DNA of 64,000 nucleotides. Source: Paucibacter sp. KBW04. GTDB lineage: Bacteria > Pseudomonadota > Gammaproteobacteria > Burkholderiales > Burkholderiaceae_C. The first letter of the stretch is position 1. Every line of letters starts with the position of its first letter. The notes beneath the pieces were generated by a model. It worked only from the letters and a program-made list of their open reading frames with translations, was not told the origin of the DNA and made no database searches. This document shows, one piece after another, positions 39,164 to 46,855 of the stretch. The stretch is from positions 290,787 through 354,786 of the forward strand of contig NZ_QAJN01000002.1 of assembly GCF_003852425.1 (NCBI RefSeq). Direction: 5' to 3'. The translations under genes and the position numbers were made by a program.

Positions 39164-40126
39164 CTAGCTGCAATCAAAGCACTGCACAAAACCCTCCCAC
39201 GCGCTGCCGCGCAACACGTGCTCGACAAAGCGCCCCCGAGTCAGCTCGCCGATCAAGGCCCGCCAAAAGGCTTGAGCCGCGTGGTTGTTCAACATCTGCC
39301 CCACCTCCCAGTAGCCCGGATGAGCCGCGAACACCGCCCGCGCCAGCTGCTGGCCCAGGCCTTGGCGCCGGTACTTTTTCAGGATGAAGAACTGCTCCAT
39401 CCAGCAGCCCTCTTGCTCTGCCTGGCCTGATCGCAGGGCGCCAGCCACCTTGAGTCTTTGGCTCAGCAAGGCAAAGCCGGCGTAGCGCCTGTTCACCCGC
39501 AGCAGATAGGCGCGCCGACCGCGCTCCGCCGTCTCACCGGGCAGGGCGTAGCCAAAGCAGCCCTGCTCGTCCAGGTCCTGATCCCAGATATCGGATAAAT
39601 CATGTTGATACAGCTCCAACATCTGGCGCAGGGCGGGCCCGTCTGCAGGCAGGGCCGGGCTGATCTGAATCGCCGCTTCAGGCTCAGAGCGCGCCTGGCT
39701 CTGCAGGTCTGCTCGCAAACGCTTGTGCAAAAACAGGCGGGGCTGCCCGGCGGGGAAGTCCTCTAGACGGGCAAAGACGCGATAGCCTCGCCGCTCATAA
39801 AAGCCCTGAGCCTGCCAGGCAAAGCGGTCGAGAACCACCGCTTGCGCGCCCTGCGTTAGCGCCTGCGCTTCGGCCTGCGCCAACAAGGCCTGACCCAGGC
39901 CCTGGCCGCGCGCCGCCTCATCCACCCACAGGGCCTCCACCGCCAGCCAGCCCAGGCACAAGTCCGCCACCACGCCGCCCAGCAAAGCGCCGGCCGGGTC
40001 GCGGGCAGAAAGCCAGAGCGCTTGAAAGCTCAGGCCGCCGGTCTCGCGGTTGAAGCGCTGCAGGCGCACGCAAATCTCCTGCGCCTCCTCAAGCTGCGCG
40101 GCTTGAATGCTGAAAGCCGGGGTCAC
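39164..40126 (-). CDS. Tandem GNAT-domain acetyltransferase
   Basis: 320 residues from a GTG at 40126 that overlaps the stop of the upstream small membrane protein gene by 4 bases (GTGA); the upstream ATG would run deep into that gene. Two GNAT modules are present. The first has VEALWVDEAARGQGLGQALLAQAE (acetyl-CoA loop RGQGLG) and FYERRGYRVFARL; the second has EQFFILKKYRRQGLGQQLAR (loop RRQGLG) and closes with YWEVGQMLNNHAAQAFW. Such tandem proteins acetylate amines or peptides in the cytosol; the substrate is unknown. Confidence 0.85.
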   Translation of the reverse strand: MTPAFSIQAAQLEEAQEICVRLQRFNRETGGLSFQALWLSARDPAGALLGGVVADLCLGWLAVEALWVDEAARGQGLGQALLAQAEAQALTQGAQAVVLDRFAWQAQGFYERRGYRVFARLEDFPAGQPRLFLHKRLRADLQSQARSEPEAAIQISPALPADGPALRQMLELYQHDLSDIWDQDLDEQGCFGYALPGETAERGRRAYLLRVNRRYAGFALLSQRLKVAGALRSGQAEQEGCWMEQFFILKKYRRQGLGQQLARAVFAAHPGYWEVGQMLNNHAAQAFWRALIGELTRGRFVEHVLRGSAWEGFVQCFDCS

Positions 40127-40341
40127 CGTTGGCGCCCCGTCCACAACAAAAGCCCTCCCAGCAAGAGCGCCGCCACACTGGCCCACAGCGGCACGGCAAT
40201 CGTCCCCATCTGACGCACCGTCAGCGTCACCGAGGCCTGCGACAGAACGGCCGTGCTCTGGGTATAGCTAAAGCCATCCAAGCTCAAGCCGGCCACGCCC
40301 ATCGCGAGCAAAACCACACCCTTCCACTGCTTTGATTTCAT
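40123..40341 (-). CDS. Small membrane protein, DUF3185-like
   Basis: 72 residues with two hydrophobic segments, GVVLLAMGVAGLSLDGFSY and VPLWASVAALLLGGLLLW, joined by a polar loop (SQASVTLTVRQMG). Size and layout fit the DUF3185 family of two-helix inner membrane proteins. The stop overlaps the acetyltransferase start. Function unknown. Confidence 0.7.
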   Translation of the reverse strand: MKSKQWKGVVLLAMGVAGLSLDGFSYTQSTAVLSQASVTLTVRQMGTIAVPLWASVAALLLGGLLLWTGRQR

Positions 40342-41005: not shown

Positions 41006-41659
41006 CTAGGCAGGTTTTGCACAGCCATTCCCCTTGCACGCGCGCATCGCGCCTCGCTTGCGCCGGTAGTCGCTGACGAGGCCTTGCGAGAACTCCAGCT
41101 CGCAACAAGCCAGCAGCCTGGTCTTCAACAATGCGCGGCCCCGGCTCACCCGGCTCTTCATGGCCGCCAGGCTGATGCCTTGGGCGGCGGCCGCCTCGGC
41201 CAAGCGGCGGCCCTCGAAGTCGCTGGCGATCAAGGCCTCGCGGTAGATGGCTGGCAGCTGCAAGAGCATGGGCCGCAAGCATTCGGCCAACTGCTGGTGG
41301 GCCGACTCGGGCTGCTGCTCCTGCGCAGCGGCCGGGCTCAAGCTCGAAGACGCGTCCGCCTCCATCTCATCCAGCGCCAGCAACTGCGGGCGCGCCGCCC
41401 GGTAGTGATCGGCCAGGGCGCTGCGCAAGGCCGCGTACAGCCAGGCGGGCAGATGACGCGGCGCATGCGCGCCCTGGAGCGCCACGCTGGCTTTGAGAAA
41501 AACCTCCTGCACCAGATCGTCCACCAAGGCCGGGTCGGCCACACGCCTGCGCACAAAGGCTCGCATGCCTTGGCGCAGGCTGGCAAAGGCGGCCGCCAGA
41601 TCCTTCTCGGGCTGCGGCGCCGCATCAGCCACAACAAGCGCCCTCGGCAGTAGCGCCAT
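41006..41659 (-). CDS. ECF-type RNA polymerase sigma factor (SigZ-like)
   Basis: 217 residues from an ATG at 41659 inside the end of the upstream gene; a GTG at 41632 is an alternative with only 8 bp overlap. Region 2 is visible as VDDLVQEVFLKASVALQG and PAWLYAALRSALADHYR; region 4 as LPAIYREALIASDFEGRRLAEAAAAQGISLAAMKSRVSRGR. The end carries several Cys (LLACCELEF, CKGNGC), as SigZ-type factors do, perhaps for redox or metal sensing. No anti-sigma gene is adjacent. Overlap with the ArsI-like gene suggests joint expression and a link to metalloid or thiol stress (inference). Confidence 0.83.
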   Translation of the reverse strand: MALLPRALVVADAAPQPEKDLAAAFASLRQGMRAFVRRRVADPALVDDLVQEVFLKASVALQGAHAPRHLPAWLYAALRSALADHYRAARPQLLALDEMEADASSSLSPAAAQEQQPESAHQQLAECLRPMLLQLPAIYREALIASDFEGRRLAEAAAAQGISLAAMKSRVSRGRALLKTRLLACCELEFSQGLVSDYRRKRGAMRACKGNGCAKPA

Positions 41660-42140
41660 CCGCTTGCAGGGGCAGACAGCATGGGCTTTTGGCCTGCGGC
41701 CCATCCGCCGCCGCGGCCCTCAAGGGGATGCAGCAAGCGCCGCTTTGATTGGCCGTGTCCTGGCCGAACACCGGCGCCTCTTCAAGCGTGTGGAAATGCT
41801 CCCAGGCCAGGCCTTGCGGGTCCACGGTCCAGTGCTTCTCGCTGCGGGCATAGCAACAGGCCGCATCGGCCTGATCGAGTACATCGGCCTCGCCGGCGGC
41901 AGCCTCGGCCAGGCGTTTCAAGCCTTCCAGTTCCTCACGGGAGTCGACCTGGAAGCCGAGGTGATTCACGCCCGTGCTGTGCCCACGCGAGGAGATGGCG
42001 AAGTTCAGGCCTGGATCGTCCAACATCCACTTGGCATAGTCCTCCCGCTGCTTGGCGGGGGCTTGGCCGAAGAGCCGGCTGTAGAAGGCGATGCTGGCGC
42101 CCAGGTTGTCAACGGCGACGTGAACATGGAAGCGTTTCAT
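41625..42140 (-). CDS. ArsI/CadI-like VOC protein (C-As lyase type)
   Basis: 171 residues. The VOC fold with FHVHVAVDNLGASIAFYSRLF matches the ArsI/CadI family. The metal ligands His5 or His7, His60 (VNHLGF) and Glu114 (AWEHFH), and the vicinal thiol pair Cys95-Cys96 (AACCYA) that binds trivalent organoarsenical in ArsI, are at the expected places. After ~residue 125 there is an added tail with three more Cys pairs (GACCIP, SPCCLP, GACCG). ArsI cleaves the carbon-arsenic bond of methylarsenite with O2. The sigma-factor gene starts within its 3' end. Confidence 0.8.
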   Translation of the reverse strand: MKRFHVHVAVDNLGASIAFYSRLFGQAPAKQREDYAKWMLDDPGLNFAISSRGHSTGVNHLGFQVDSREELEGLKRLAEAAAGEADVLDQADAACCYARSEKHWTVDPQGLAWEHFHTLEEAPVFGQDTANQSGACCIPLRAAAADGPQAKSPCCLPLQADGATAEGACCG

Positions 42141-44324: not shown

Positions 44325-45350
44325 CTAATCCTCCAGCTCGACGCTGACGCCCGCCTGGTCGTTTTCCTTTTTGGCTTGGGCGGCCAACTCGGCCTCCAGC
44401 GGGCGCAAGGACTCCATCAATTCGCCCACCGGTTTGGGCTCAACCAGGCGTAAGGCCGGTGGCGGCAAGGCGCTGAGGTAGGCCGGGCCTAGCCAGTACT
44501 GCTGCTCCTGGCGGCGCGCCATGTCCAGGCCCAAGTCCAAGCAAACCAGCGCCAGCATGGCAATGGCAATGCGGCGCAGAACACGCGGGCGCGGCCAGAT
44601 CAGGCTGGCATGCCAAGTCAGCAGCAAGGCCAGGCCGAAGGTGTCGGTCAAGCCCTCCAGCACCATCAGCCGGGGCCAGGAGAAGGCATAGGCCAGGGCG
44701 GGAAGCAGCTGCGCCAAAAGCAGGCGCAAGATCAGCAAGCTGAGTGCAATGCGCAAATGGGCGGCAAAAGGGAAGCTGCGCCGGAACAACTGGGTCAGCA
44801 AGGCGCAAAAACCCACCCACAGCAGCAAGAGCCCCAAGGGCCCGAGCACGGCCGTGCTGTAGTCCATCCAGCGCGCACCCGGGTCGAGTTGCGACCATTG
44901 CTGGCCGACTAACATGGCCAACCAAAGCAGCAACAGGCCCAGCACCTGAAGCATGCCGGGCCGCAGACGCAGATGCTGGCCTTGCAAGCGGTGCAGATGC
45001 GACTCCAGGGGCTGCTCAGGTGGCAAGGCCGCGTCAAGGCTGCGCCAGCGCAGCTGGCTGGCGCCGAGCTGAAATTGAGCGCTATCGCCTAGGACTAACT
45101 CTTCACCCGCCCGGAGCCGCCGCTCGCCCAGCCAGCCGCCATTCAGGCTGGCCAACATCTGCAACTGCGGGCCGCTCTCCGCCCAGTCCAGTTGCGCATG
45201 TTCGGCGGCCAGATGGGGGTCATCCAAAATCCAATCGCAGGCGGCCGAGCGGCCGATGCGCAGCGGCCATTGCGTCACGCGCTGCACCCGCAAGACCTGT
45301 CCCTCGCGGCCCAGCAGCTCCAAAACTCCGATGCGCTGCGCTGTCATCAT
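44325..45350 (-). CDS. FHA-domain membrane protein
   Basis: 341 residues. The N-terminal ~110 residues are a forkhead-associated domain: WPLRIGRSAACDWILDD with the conserved Gly-Arg-Ser, then HLAAEHAQLDW with the conserved His and LASLNGGWLGERRL with the Asn-Gly. It should bind phosphothreonine. Residues ~130-275 hold about four membrane helices (LQVLGLLLLWLAMLVGQQW, LGPLGLLLLWVGFCALLTQL). Its start overlaps the stop of the trypsin-like protease gene by 4 bases, so the two are made together. No protein kinase lies in the window. The pair suggests phospho-controlled membrane signalling linked to proteolysis (inference). Confidence 0.83.
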   Translation of the reverse strand: MMTAQRIGVLELLGREGQVLRVQRVTQWPLRIGRSAACDWILDDPHLAAEHAQLDWAESGPQLQMLASLNGGWLGERRLRAGEELVLGDSAQFQLGASQLRWRSLDAALPPEQPLESHLHRLQGQHLRLRPGMLQVLGLLLLWLAMLVGQQWSQLDPGARWMDYSTAVLGPLGLLLLWVGFCALLTQLFRRSFPFAAHLRIALSLLILRLLLAQLLPALAYAFSWPRLMVLEGLTDTFGLALLLTWHASLIWPRPRVLRRIAIAMLALVCLDLGLDMARRQEQQYWLGPAYLSALPPPALRLVEPKPVGELMESLRPLEAELAAQAKKENDQAGVSVELED

Positions 45351-46804
45351 TTCGCTCCGCCGCTGTTGTTGTTGCTGTTGCTGGGGGTCTTTGGCGTCCA
45401 GCCAAAGCCCTCAAGATAATGGGCGCTCAACTTCAGCGCATTGTCAAAGCTCACCCCTGCAGCGTTGAAGCGGCCTAAAGCGCCTTGGGTGGAAGCATCC
45501 ACCGTAGTCACCAGCACGCTCAAATCATGCAAGCCCGCCAGCTTGCGATAGGCACGCAGGCAGACCACGGCACGCAGGGGCAAGCCCTCCTTCGAAGAGA
45601 CGAACTCCTCTTTGCAGAAAGGCGCCGTGCGGTCCTTATCGTCCCGACCCAGACGCTCATTGCGGAAGCTGGCTGAATACTGCTTGGCAAAACGCAGCGG
45701 ACCCAGCTTGGCGCCGTCATACACCTCATGGCTCATGGACAGATAGCCCGTCTGCAAACGGCCGTCGATGAAGAGCGCATGCTCCATGCGGCATTGCGAG
45801 CGTTGGAACTCCAGGCCCTTGGAGTCGGCCGGCGTGCCGCGCCCCCAGCAACGCATGAACAGCTCCTGCGGCACCGGCAGGCGGTAAATGTCCGCACTGC
45901 CAGCCGCCGGCGCCTGCCAGGGCTGGGCAATGAAGCGGGTGCTCAGCTCCTCTTGATAGGCCAGCAACTGCTCACGCAAGCGGCCCCAGGCCGGCTGGCT
46001 GATGGGCTTGGCATGGCGGCTGCGCTCCAGCAAGGCCTGGGCGTACTCACCCGGCACCAAAAAACTCATCTGCTGGGCAAAGAACATGGCCGAGACATTG
46101 ACGCCCACCACCCGCCCCGCCTCGTCCACCACCGGCCCCCCACTCATGCCGGCATTGATGCTGCCCGAGTAGTAAATCAGCGCGTCAAAGCTGCGCTCCA
46201 CCAGGCCGTTGTAATTGCCTTCCACCACGGCAAAGGCCACATCGTGCGGATTGCCCATGGAATAGATGCGGTCCCCCTTGGCCAGGGGCTGGCTCACAGG
46301 ACGAAAGCTCAGGCTCCCGCGATTCTTCAGACCCGGCTCCGCGCCCTTGGGCGCCACCACACGCAGCAAGGCCAGATCGCGGCGCACATCAAAGTCCAGC
46401 AGCTCCAGCTGGCCCTCCTGGCCATCGGTGCTGGCATAGCGCAGGCGGTAGCGATCGGGCTCCAGCGCGACCTGGCTGATGACGTGGTAATTCGTCAGCA
46501 CATGGCCTTCTTCGCTGACCAGAAAGCCCGAACCGACCGAAGCCTGGCTGTCCTGGCTCTTCAAGAGTGTGCGGATCTGCAGCAGCTGTGAGCGGGCGCT
46601 CTCGTAGACGCGCCTGGCGGTGGCCGAGACGGCTGCGGGCGGCGGCACTGCCGAGGCCGCCGCTGCGGCAGGCTGGGGCTGCGCCGAGGCCTGCCAAGGC
46701 TGGCCCAGACTCAAGACCCACAAGGCCTGCAAACAGATGAGGCCCAGGGCCATGGCGGCCTGCCCGGGCTTTGTGTTTCTTTTGCTATCGATGCGGCTGT
46801 GCAA
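45347..46804 (-). CDS. Trypsin-like (S1/DegP-type) serine protease, exported
   Basis: 485 residues. The N-terminal hydrophobic segment (ALGLICLQALWVLSLG) is a signal or anchor, followed by an Ala/Pro linker. The catalytic triad is visible: His in VLTNYHVISQV, Asp in DVRRDLALLRV and Ser in INAGMSGGPVVDEAG. The protease domain covers about residues 65-265; no PDZ domain is obvious. The C-terminal ~220 residues form a second domain with several Cys (FMRCWGRG, SQCRMEH, PFCKEE, VVCLRAYR) that I do not recognise, ending in an Asn/Ser-rich tail. It is probably periplasmic and is coupled to the FHA membrane protein gene. Confidence 0.87.
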   Translation of the reverse strand: MHSRIDSKRNTKPGQAAMALGLICLQALWVLSLGQPWQASAQPQPAAAAASAVPPPAAVSATARRVYESARSQLLQIRTLLKSQDSQASVGSGFLVSEEGHVLTNYHVISQVALEPDRYRLRYASTDGQEGQLELLDFDVRRDLALLRVVAPKGAEPGLKNRGSLSFRPVSQPLAKGDRIYSMGNPHDVAFAVVEGNYNGLVERSFDALIYYSGSINAGMSGGPVVDEAGRVVGVNVSAMFFAQQMSFLVPGEYAQALLERSRHAKPISQPAWGRLREQLLAYQEELSTRFIAQPWQAPAAGSADIYRLPVPQELFMRCWGRGTPADSKGLEFQRSQCRMEHALFIDGRLQTGYLSMSHEVYDGAKLGPLRFAKQYSASFRNERLGRDDKDRTAPFCKEEFVSSKEGLPLRAVVCLRAYRKLAGLHDLSVLVTTVDASTQGALGRFNAAGVSFDNALKLSAHYLEGFGWTPKTPSNSNNNSGGAK

Positions 46805-46855
46805 GAAGCGCTCCCGTGATCTTGTTGCGCGCCATGCTAGCTCAGCCTGCCCTAC

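Follow-up and report, generated by a model that had tools for sequence, protein, structure and literature searches.

What does a membrane protein bearing an FHA domain do beside an exported trypsin-like protease, when the two genes overlap and recur together? This question was raised by a gene pair of Paucibacter sp. KBW04 that lies in the window, i.e., the whole 64,000-nt stretch of DNA analysed here (GCF_003852425.1, contig NZ_QAJN01000002.1, 290,787-354,786). An earlier note had proposed an FHA-protease signalling module, perhaps related to type VI secretion; the conserved pair and the unrecognised protease domain in that proposal held up, while the type VI relation did not and phosphothreonine reading became doubtful here. 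The reading favoured below, to which we would tentatively give not quite an even chance on sequence grounds, is that of a periplasmic protease tethered at the membrane, whose membrane/tail partner is obligate and whose cytosolic FHA input is optional; for this module we infer, at most, binding, activity, direction, and substrate.

Both open reading frames were recovered on the minus strand with the 4-base overlap that had been noted before (Table 1), and a protease/partner overlap was present in 86/103 rows, a count that includes near-duplicates and uses starts picked by a fixed rule. Upstream of the pair on the same strand were a DUF3025 gene and an amidohydrolase gene (Pfam), the latter presumably pyrC; downstream was a convergent gene for a PLP-dependent enzyme (Pfam), which we take to be cysM. 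Two further loci of the window, both on the minus strand, were recorded: (i) at 41006-42140, a gene for a Glyoxalase-family protein with a C-terminus rich in Cys pairs, presumably ArsI-like, together with an overlapping sigma-70-family gene that had regions 2 and 4 only; and (ii) a single open reading frame at 39164-40186 with two stretches matching GNAT acetyltransferases.

Table 1. Coordinates in the window of the protease gene, the partner gene, and their predicted features
Feature	Coordinates	Strand	Basis or remarks
RBS-like GGGAG	46811-46815	-	6 nt ahead of protease TTG start
Protease gene	45347..46804	-	485 aa, TTG start; in-frame ATG alternative at 46753
Predicted signal peptide, AxA-type cleavage site, about residues 1-42	46679..46804	-	Sequence
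Trypsin-like HtrA/DegS-fold catalytic domain (predicted), residues 61-266	46007..46624	-	Pfam, AF2, VIA
Catalytic triad span	46142..46486	-	H107 46484-46486, D143 46376-46378, S221 46142-46144
Unclassified alpha/beta C-terminal domain, residues 300-472	45389..45907	-	AF2 model, alignment, profile searches
ATGA overlap, protease stop/FHA gene start	45347..45350	-	Sequence; 4 bases
FHA-5TM-tail partner gene	44325..45350	-	341 aa; ORF and Pfam
FHA domain, residues 5-105, predicted cytosolic	45036..45338	-	Pfam, AF2, Rad53 alignment
Five predicted transmembrane helices, residues 131-282, N-in/C-out	44505..44960	-	AF2; loop K+R counts
Periplasmic tail motif (predicted), residues 289-301, PAYLSALPPPALR	44448..44486	-	Conservation; about as conserved as FHA core
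C-terminal predicted periplasmic helix, residues 308-335	44346..44429	-	AF2 model

Protease and its C-terminal domain

Export of the protease was predicted from its signal peptide, and a simple script rule found A.A after a hydrophobic core in 94/103 relatives' N-termini (near-duplicates included). The description of an exported protease paired with an FHA membrane protein was borne out at the level of prediction, the pair itself being conserved (see below). The catalytic domain matched Pfam Trypsin_2 (1.2e-27), and the closest structure to the AF2 model (mean pLDDT 86.8) was DegS lacking its PDZ, 2qf0_F (Z 26.1, rmsd 2.1, 192 residues aligned; VIA, with rows within 1 Z ranked as tied). The triad, previously called intact, was nearly invariant across 43 aligned relatives: H107 in 43/43, S221 in 43/43, and D143 in 42/43 (N in L019). 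By its model, the protein is an HtrA/DegS-fold serine protease with predicted activity.

HtrA/DegS proteases, presumably MEROPS S1C, shared with it the trypsin-like fold and the H-D-S triad, but the window protease differed from them in having (i) no PDZ match, with a four-Cys C-terminal domain instead, and (ii) a constant membrane partner. No PDZ family was matched by the window protease (Pfam, E up to 1) or was among the families matching 46 C-terminal domains (Pfam, E up to 0.1), and the protease scored far below the cut-offs of the curated DegP/DegS/DegQ models (best 75.3 of 416.2 bits). Control of HtrA-type proteases usually runs via PDZ domains and misfolded proteins of the envelope; if the favoured reading is true, a widespread, constantly paired protease lacking a PDZ match, with a dedicated membrane partner that bears a cytosolic FHA, would represent a different control route for such proteases.

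The second, Cys-containing domain, which had been left unrecognised, stayed so: residues 300-472 of the window protease matched no Pfam family, and a search of PDB sequences with a 46-row profile of the domain gave no match at E up to 1. When the 46 C-terminal domains were searched against Pfam, five families were hit, each matching one member only (best E 0.011). C319, C338, C397, and C415 were invariant in all 46 rows of the alignment; the model suggests the pairs 319-338 and 397-415, each from neighbouring strands, and makes disulfides probable. Among the structural matches listed, none was specific to residues 300-472, the queries being full-length with the trypsin domain dominating, and this gave no evidence of a new fold.

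Membrane partner and distribution of the pair

The partner was modelled with a mean pLDDT of 89.5 (AF2), and its predicted N-in/C-out topology fitted the loop K+R counts in 43 homologues (mean K+R for N-flank and loops 1-4: 1.95 / 0.67 / 2.37 / 0.67 / 2.79); the first 25 tail residues carried 1.88 K+R, above the other predicted periplasmic loops, and this counts against the favoured reading. The mean frequency of the top residue was 0.70 in tail residues 289-301, against 0.56 over the FHA domain as a whole and 0.48 in the helices; among 13-residue windows of the partner, the best lay in the FHA core (0.73), with 0.70-0.71 reached in the tail, so the tail motif and the FHA core were the two conserved spots of this protein. 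A related Pro/aromatic/Leu/Pro pattern was kept in several FHA-less partners (by eye). The membrane and tail part of the window protein matched no Pfam family, and it made up, together with the protease C-terminal domain, two protein parts in the window that lack a Pfam match.

Conservation beyond the strain was surveyed at several taxonomic levels, and the linkage was found in family, class, and phylum: (i) a near-full-length protease relative was present in 39/120 family genomes, own genome included (E <=9.6e-121; next best 6.5e-18; hand count), loci were fetched for 30 of these 39 (own included), and 27/29 family-level fetched loci had the two genes adjacent on one strand with the protease first, with the exceptions L026 (contig end) and L027; (ii) the full protease profile matched 25/369 class genomes at 1e-30, and 21/23 class-level loci had an FHA partner in that arrangement, with the exceptions L163 (FHA-less partner) and L165 (contig end), one of the 25 genomes (G218, contig-edge fragment) being left out of the longer-region loci; (iii) 14/299 genomes of the phylum survey matched, 5 of them outside the class, and the partner was found in 9/9 newly fetched loci, on the same strand with the protease first; and (iv) the partner was adjacent on the same strand, protease first, in 72/74 GTDB loci, both misses being at contig ends. 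Because some genomes contributed to both L034-L107 and L005-L033, the tallies of these two sets are not independent. Named relatives came from Roseateles, Paucibacter, Pelomonas, Mitsuaria, Rubrivivax, Aquabacterium, Dasania, and Porticoccaceae records. This arrangement recurs across Pseudomonadota more than by chance, and the restriction to a single strain that the note had named as its refutation does not apply. No description of an FHA-membrane-protein/protease pair was found in the open-access library searched, in agreement with the earlier view of an undescribed module.

The protease C-terminal domain and the membrane+tail part were also traced separately. The C-terminal domain was present in 22/339 class genomes. 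The membrane+tail profile gave 20 strong matches in the same 339 genomes, all 20 adjoining the protease, a partly circular count since the profile was built largely from partners beside proteases, most of the 20 included; the count therefore bears on whether stray relatives exist and is no second discovery of the pair. Weak strays were seen at 3.9e-4 in G357 (also with a strong match) and at 5.5e-4 in G233, and, since few candidates were scored per genome, diverged stand-alone relatives of the membrane+tail part could be missed. The only genomes with the C-terminal domain and no strong partner match were G262 and G420, the gene being at a contig end in both, and the start of an FHA partner was visible before the contig end in G420 (L147).

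Mobile carriage was rejected, as 0/778 matching plasmid records contained a stretch that covered 80% of the protease, and a scan of viral contigs using the single protease protein gave no relative. Anti-phage defence was rejected likewise, PADLOC matches being confined to the trypsin domain, within residues 74-250. Two local irregularities were observed: in L027 (1420-4020), the protease frame has no stop and reads on through the FHA gene, owing to either a sequencing error or an extension; and G067, an assembly listed as 6% contaminated, had two near-full-length protease copies (L015; contig C62:29156-30466), 75% and 72% identical to the query.

FHA domain, kinases, and FHA decay in family f150

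The partner matched Pfam FHA at 2e-9, above the cut-off, and had the FHA fold and the GR motif together with the motif His and Asn-Gly (H51, N70, and G71). FHA domains that bind phosphothreonine carry an SxxH motif, and in Rad53 the aligned Ser contacts the phosphate. When the window FHA was aligned with Rad53, Arg34, His51, and Asn70 were the same residues, and Rad53's Ser corresponded to Ala48, so the Ser of SxxH was lacking in the window FHA. The phosphothreonine reading in the cytosol proposed earlier is doubtful for this clade: Arg34, His51, and Asn70 are kept, but Ala48 stands in place of the Ser. Across 93 relatives, the window protein included among those with Ala, the position was occupied by 76 Ala, 8 S, 4 C, 3 D, 1 G, and 1 E, which counts against the favoured reading; the FHA Arg was kept in 91/93 aligned partners. 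The two other FHA proteins of the window genome keep the Ser, and L222, L225, and L227 carry it too (by eye), so canonical sites occur in other lineages.

Ser/Thr kinases, which the note had suggested looking for nearby, showed no general adjacency: within the fetched stretches (1.51 Mb total), a kinase was found in 4/106 loci by a neighbourhood model that included the kinases of three of these four loci, and PP2C in 4/106. Compared with 15 kinase matches in the 5.6 Mb of the window genome, this proximity was about chance with no overall enrichment, and kinase neighbours as a general rule were rejected. The individual cases were (i) L225, where genes for a CHASE2-kinase, a PP2C, and an FHA protein come after the pair, all on one strand, and (ii) L150 and L154, with kinase and PP2C genes upstream of the pair and two genes in between, which we take to be rph and rdgB. 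Apart from the pair, the window genome contained a row of Ser/Thr kinase, PP2C, and FHA genes on contig C30 (L166, 4770-7529), resembling the cluster after the pair in L225, and a protein with a nucleotide cyclase domain and a C-terminal partial FHA match on contig C1 (L167, 7197-8186).

Family f150 separated the FHA domain from the rest of the module. The protease C-terminal domain was present in 12/12 f150 genomes, the sole positives among 32 genomes of the order, and the protease and membrane/tail partner were kept in all 12 (weakest partner match L243, 23.2 bits). By eye on the translations, the FHA was absent in six (G267, G766, G769, G770, G771, and G772) and the FHA Arg was lost in four (G379, G764, G767, and G768); the remaining two (G763 and G765) kept the Arg without a strong kinase, which counts against the favoured reading. 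At E 1e-8, PF00069 kinases were missing from 7/12 f150 genomes, and 5/12 had one match each (2.8e-14 to 1.5e-10). By comparison, all 39/39 other protease-bearing genomes tested had a PF00069 match of 1.6e-34 or better; these 39 were the own genome plus 12 and 26 from two further sets, with the partner gene confirmed in 34/39 (loci of G091, G099, G105, and G113 not fetched; partner off contig in G262) and with G018, which had no pair (best match 2.9e-14), excluded. Outside f150, G319 (L155) lost the FHA Arg and retained three kinases, another point against the favoured reading.

Since f150 is one clade of small genomes, the match of FHA loss with kinase loss is possibly one event. On the protease tree, the FHA-less versus Arg-less rows needed two changes, and one change sufficed in 0/200 bootstrap trees; the well-supported branches alone force no more than one. 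Small genome size alone gives no explanation, because G205 (2.3 Mb) and G649 (1.8 Mb) keep the FHA and kinases. The decay of the FHA in a clade without strong kinase matches provides a natural experiment by which its role becomes testable. The module outlasts loss of the FHA but, apart from contig ends, was never seen lacking the membrane/tail part; we therefore regard the membrane/tail part as the constant partner and take the FHA to be an input more probably than an output.

Proposed control of the protease

Under the favoured reading, the protease would be exported via its Sec signal peptide into the periplasm, and five helices would anchor the partner in the inner membrane, leaving its FHA in the cytosol and its conserved Tyr/Leu/Pro tail in the periplasm. 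The tail and the membrane part would bind the protease, most likely at its C-terminal domain, and the partner would thereby keep the protease membrane-tethered, with protease activity either held or switched. The FHA, in origin a Ser/Thr phosphorylation reader, would tune this control as an input from the cytosol (inside-out signalling). Physical binding, gating, direction, phospho-input, and substrate are here what we infer for the module. A full inside-out phospho-relay, in which the FHA reads Ser/Thr phosphorylation in the cytosol and this gates a dedicated periplasmic HtrA-like protease through the five-helix protein, the tail docks on the four-Cys domain, and the FHA is being lost, leaving the core alone, in a lineage without kinases, is possible and somewhat doubtful. 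If it is true, bacterial Ser/Thr phosphorylation could be linked to proteolysis outside the cytosol.

Alternatively, the partner might be a constitutive tether or inhibitor that anchors or safeguards the protease, with the FHA as an assembly or phospho-independent docking domain and no signalling in this clade. Ala48 at the Ser position, the dispensability of the FHA in f150 with the remainder retained, and the lack of kinase enrichment near the pair all fit a tether; however, the almost universal FHA Arg and an FHA core that is the partner's best-conserved 13-residue stretch argue against it, as do the several lineages in which the Ser persists, with kinase/PP2C genes alongside in three cases (L150, L154, and L225), and the decayed or missing FHA in 10/12 genomes of the sole clade without strong kinases. 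We consider it rather unlikely.

Outside-in signalling like that of DegS-RseA, in which envelope stress sensed by the protease leads it to cut or load the partner and the FHA relays to the cytosol, appears improbable: the DegS-like protease fold and a membrane partner with a cytosolic domain and a conserved periplasmic tail would suit it, but loss of the FHA would end such a pathway, yet 6/12 f150 genomes keep the protease and the membrane/tail part, and the protease has no PDZ match for peptide sensing.

That the pair belongs to, or regulates, type VI or some other secretion system, as weak TagH-like and YscD-like FHA similarity might hint, is very improbable, both matches being under cut-off (TagH, TIGR03354 34.5 bits versus 120.25; SctD/YscD of type III, PF16697 29.5 of 33.2 bits and TIGR02500 12 of 86 bits) and the T6SS sheath gene VipB (PF05943) being present in only 12/47 genomes searched and absent from 35/47, i.e., the window's genome and 34 others, so the type VI link once suggested was dropped. 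TagH/Fha of type VI secretion shares the N-terminal FHA with the partner, which differs in its five helices, its periplasmic tail, and the absence of a VipB link. YscD/SctD likewise shares an FHA-like domain on a membrane protein; YscD has one transmembrane helix, whereas the partner has five predicted helices and a different periplasmic part.

A combination of FHA and trypsin domains is also listed for NP_811686.1 of Bacteroides thetaiotaomicron, an FHA-FHA-trypsin protein (PMC2605481); that protein carries two FHA domains and the trypsin domain in one chain, while the domains of the Paucibacter pair are encoded by two genes, with the membrane predicted to lie between them.
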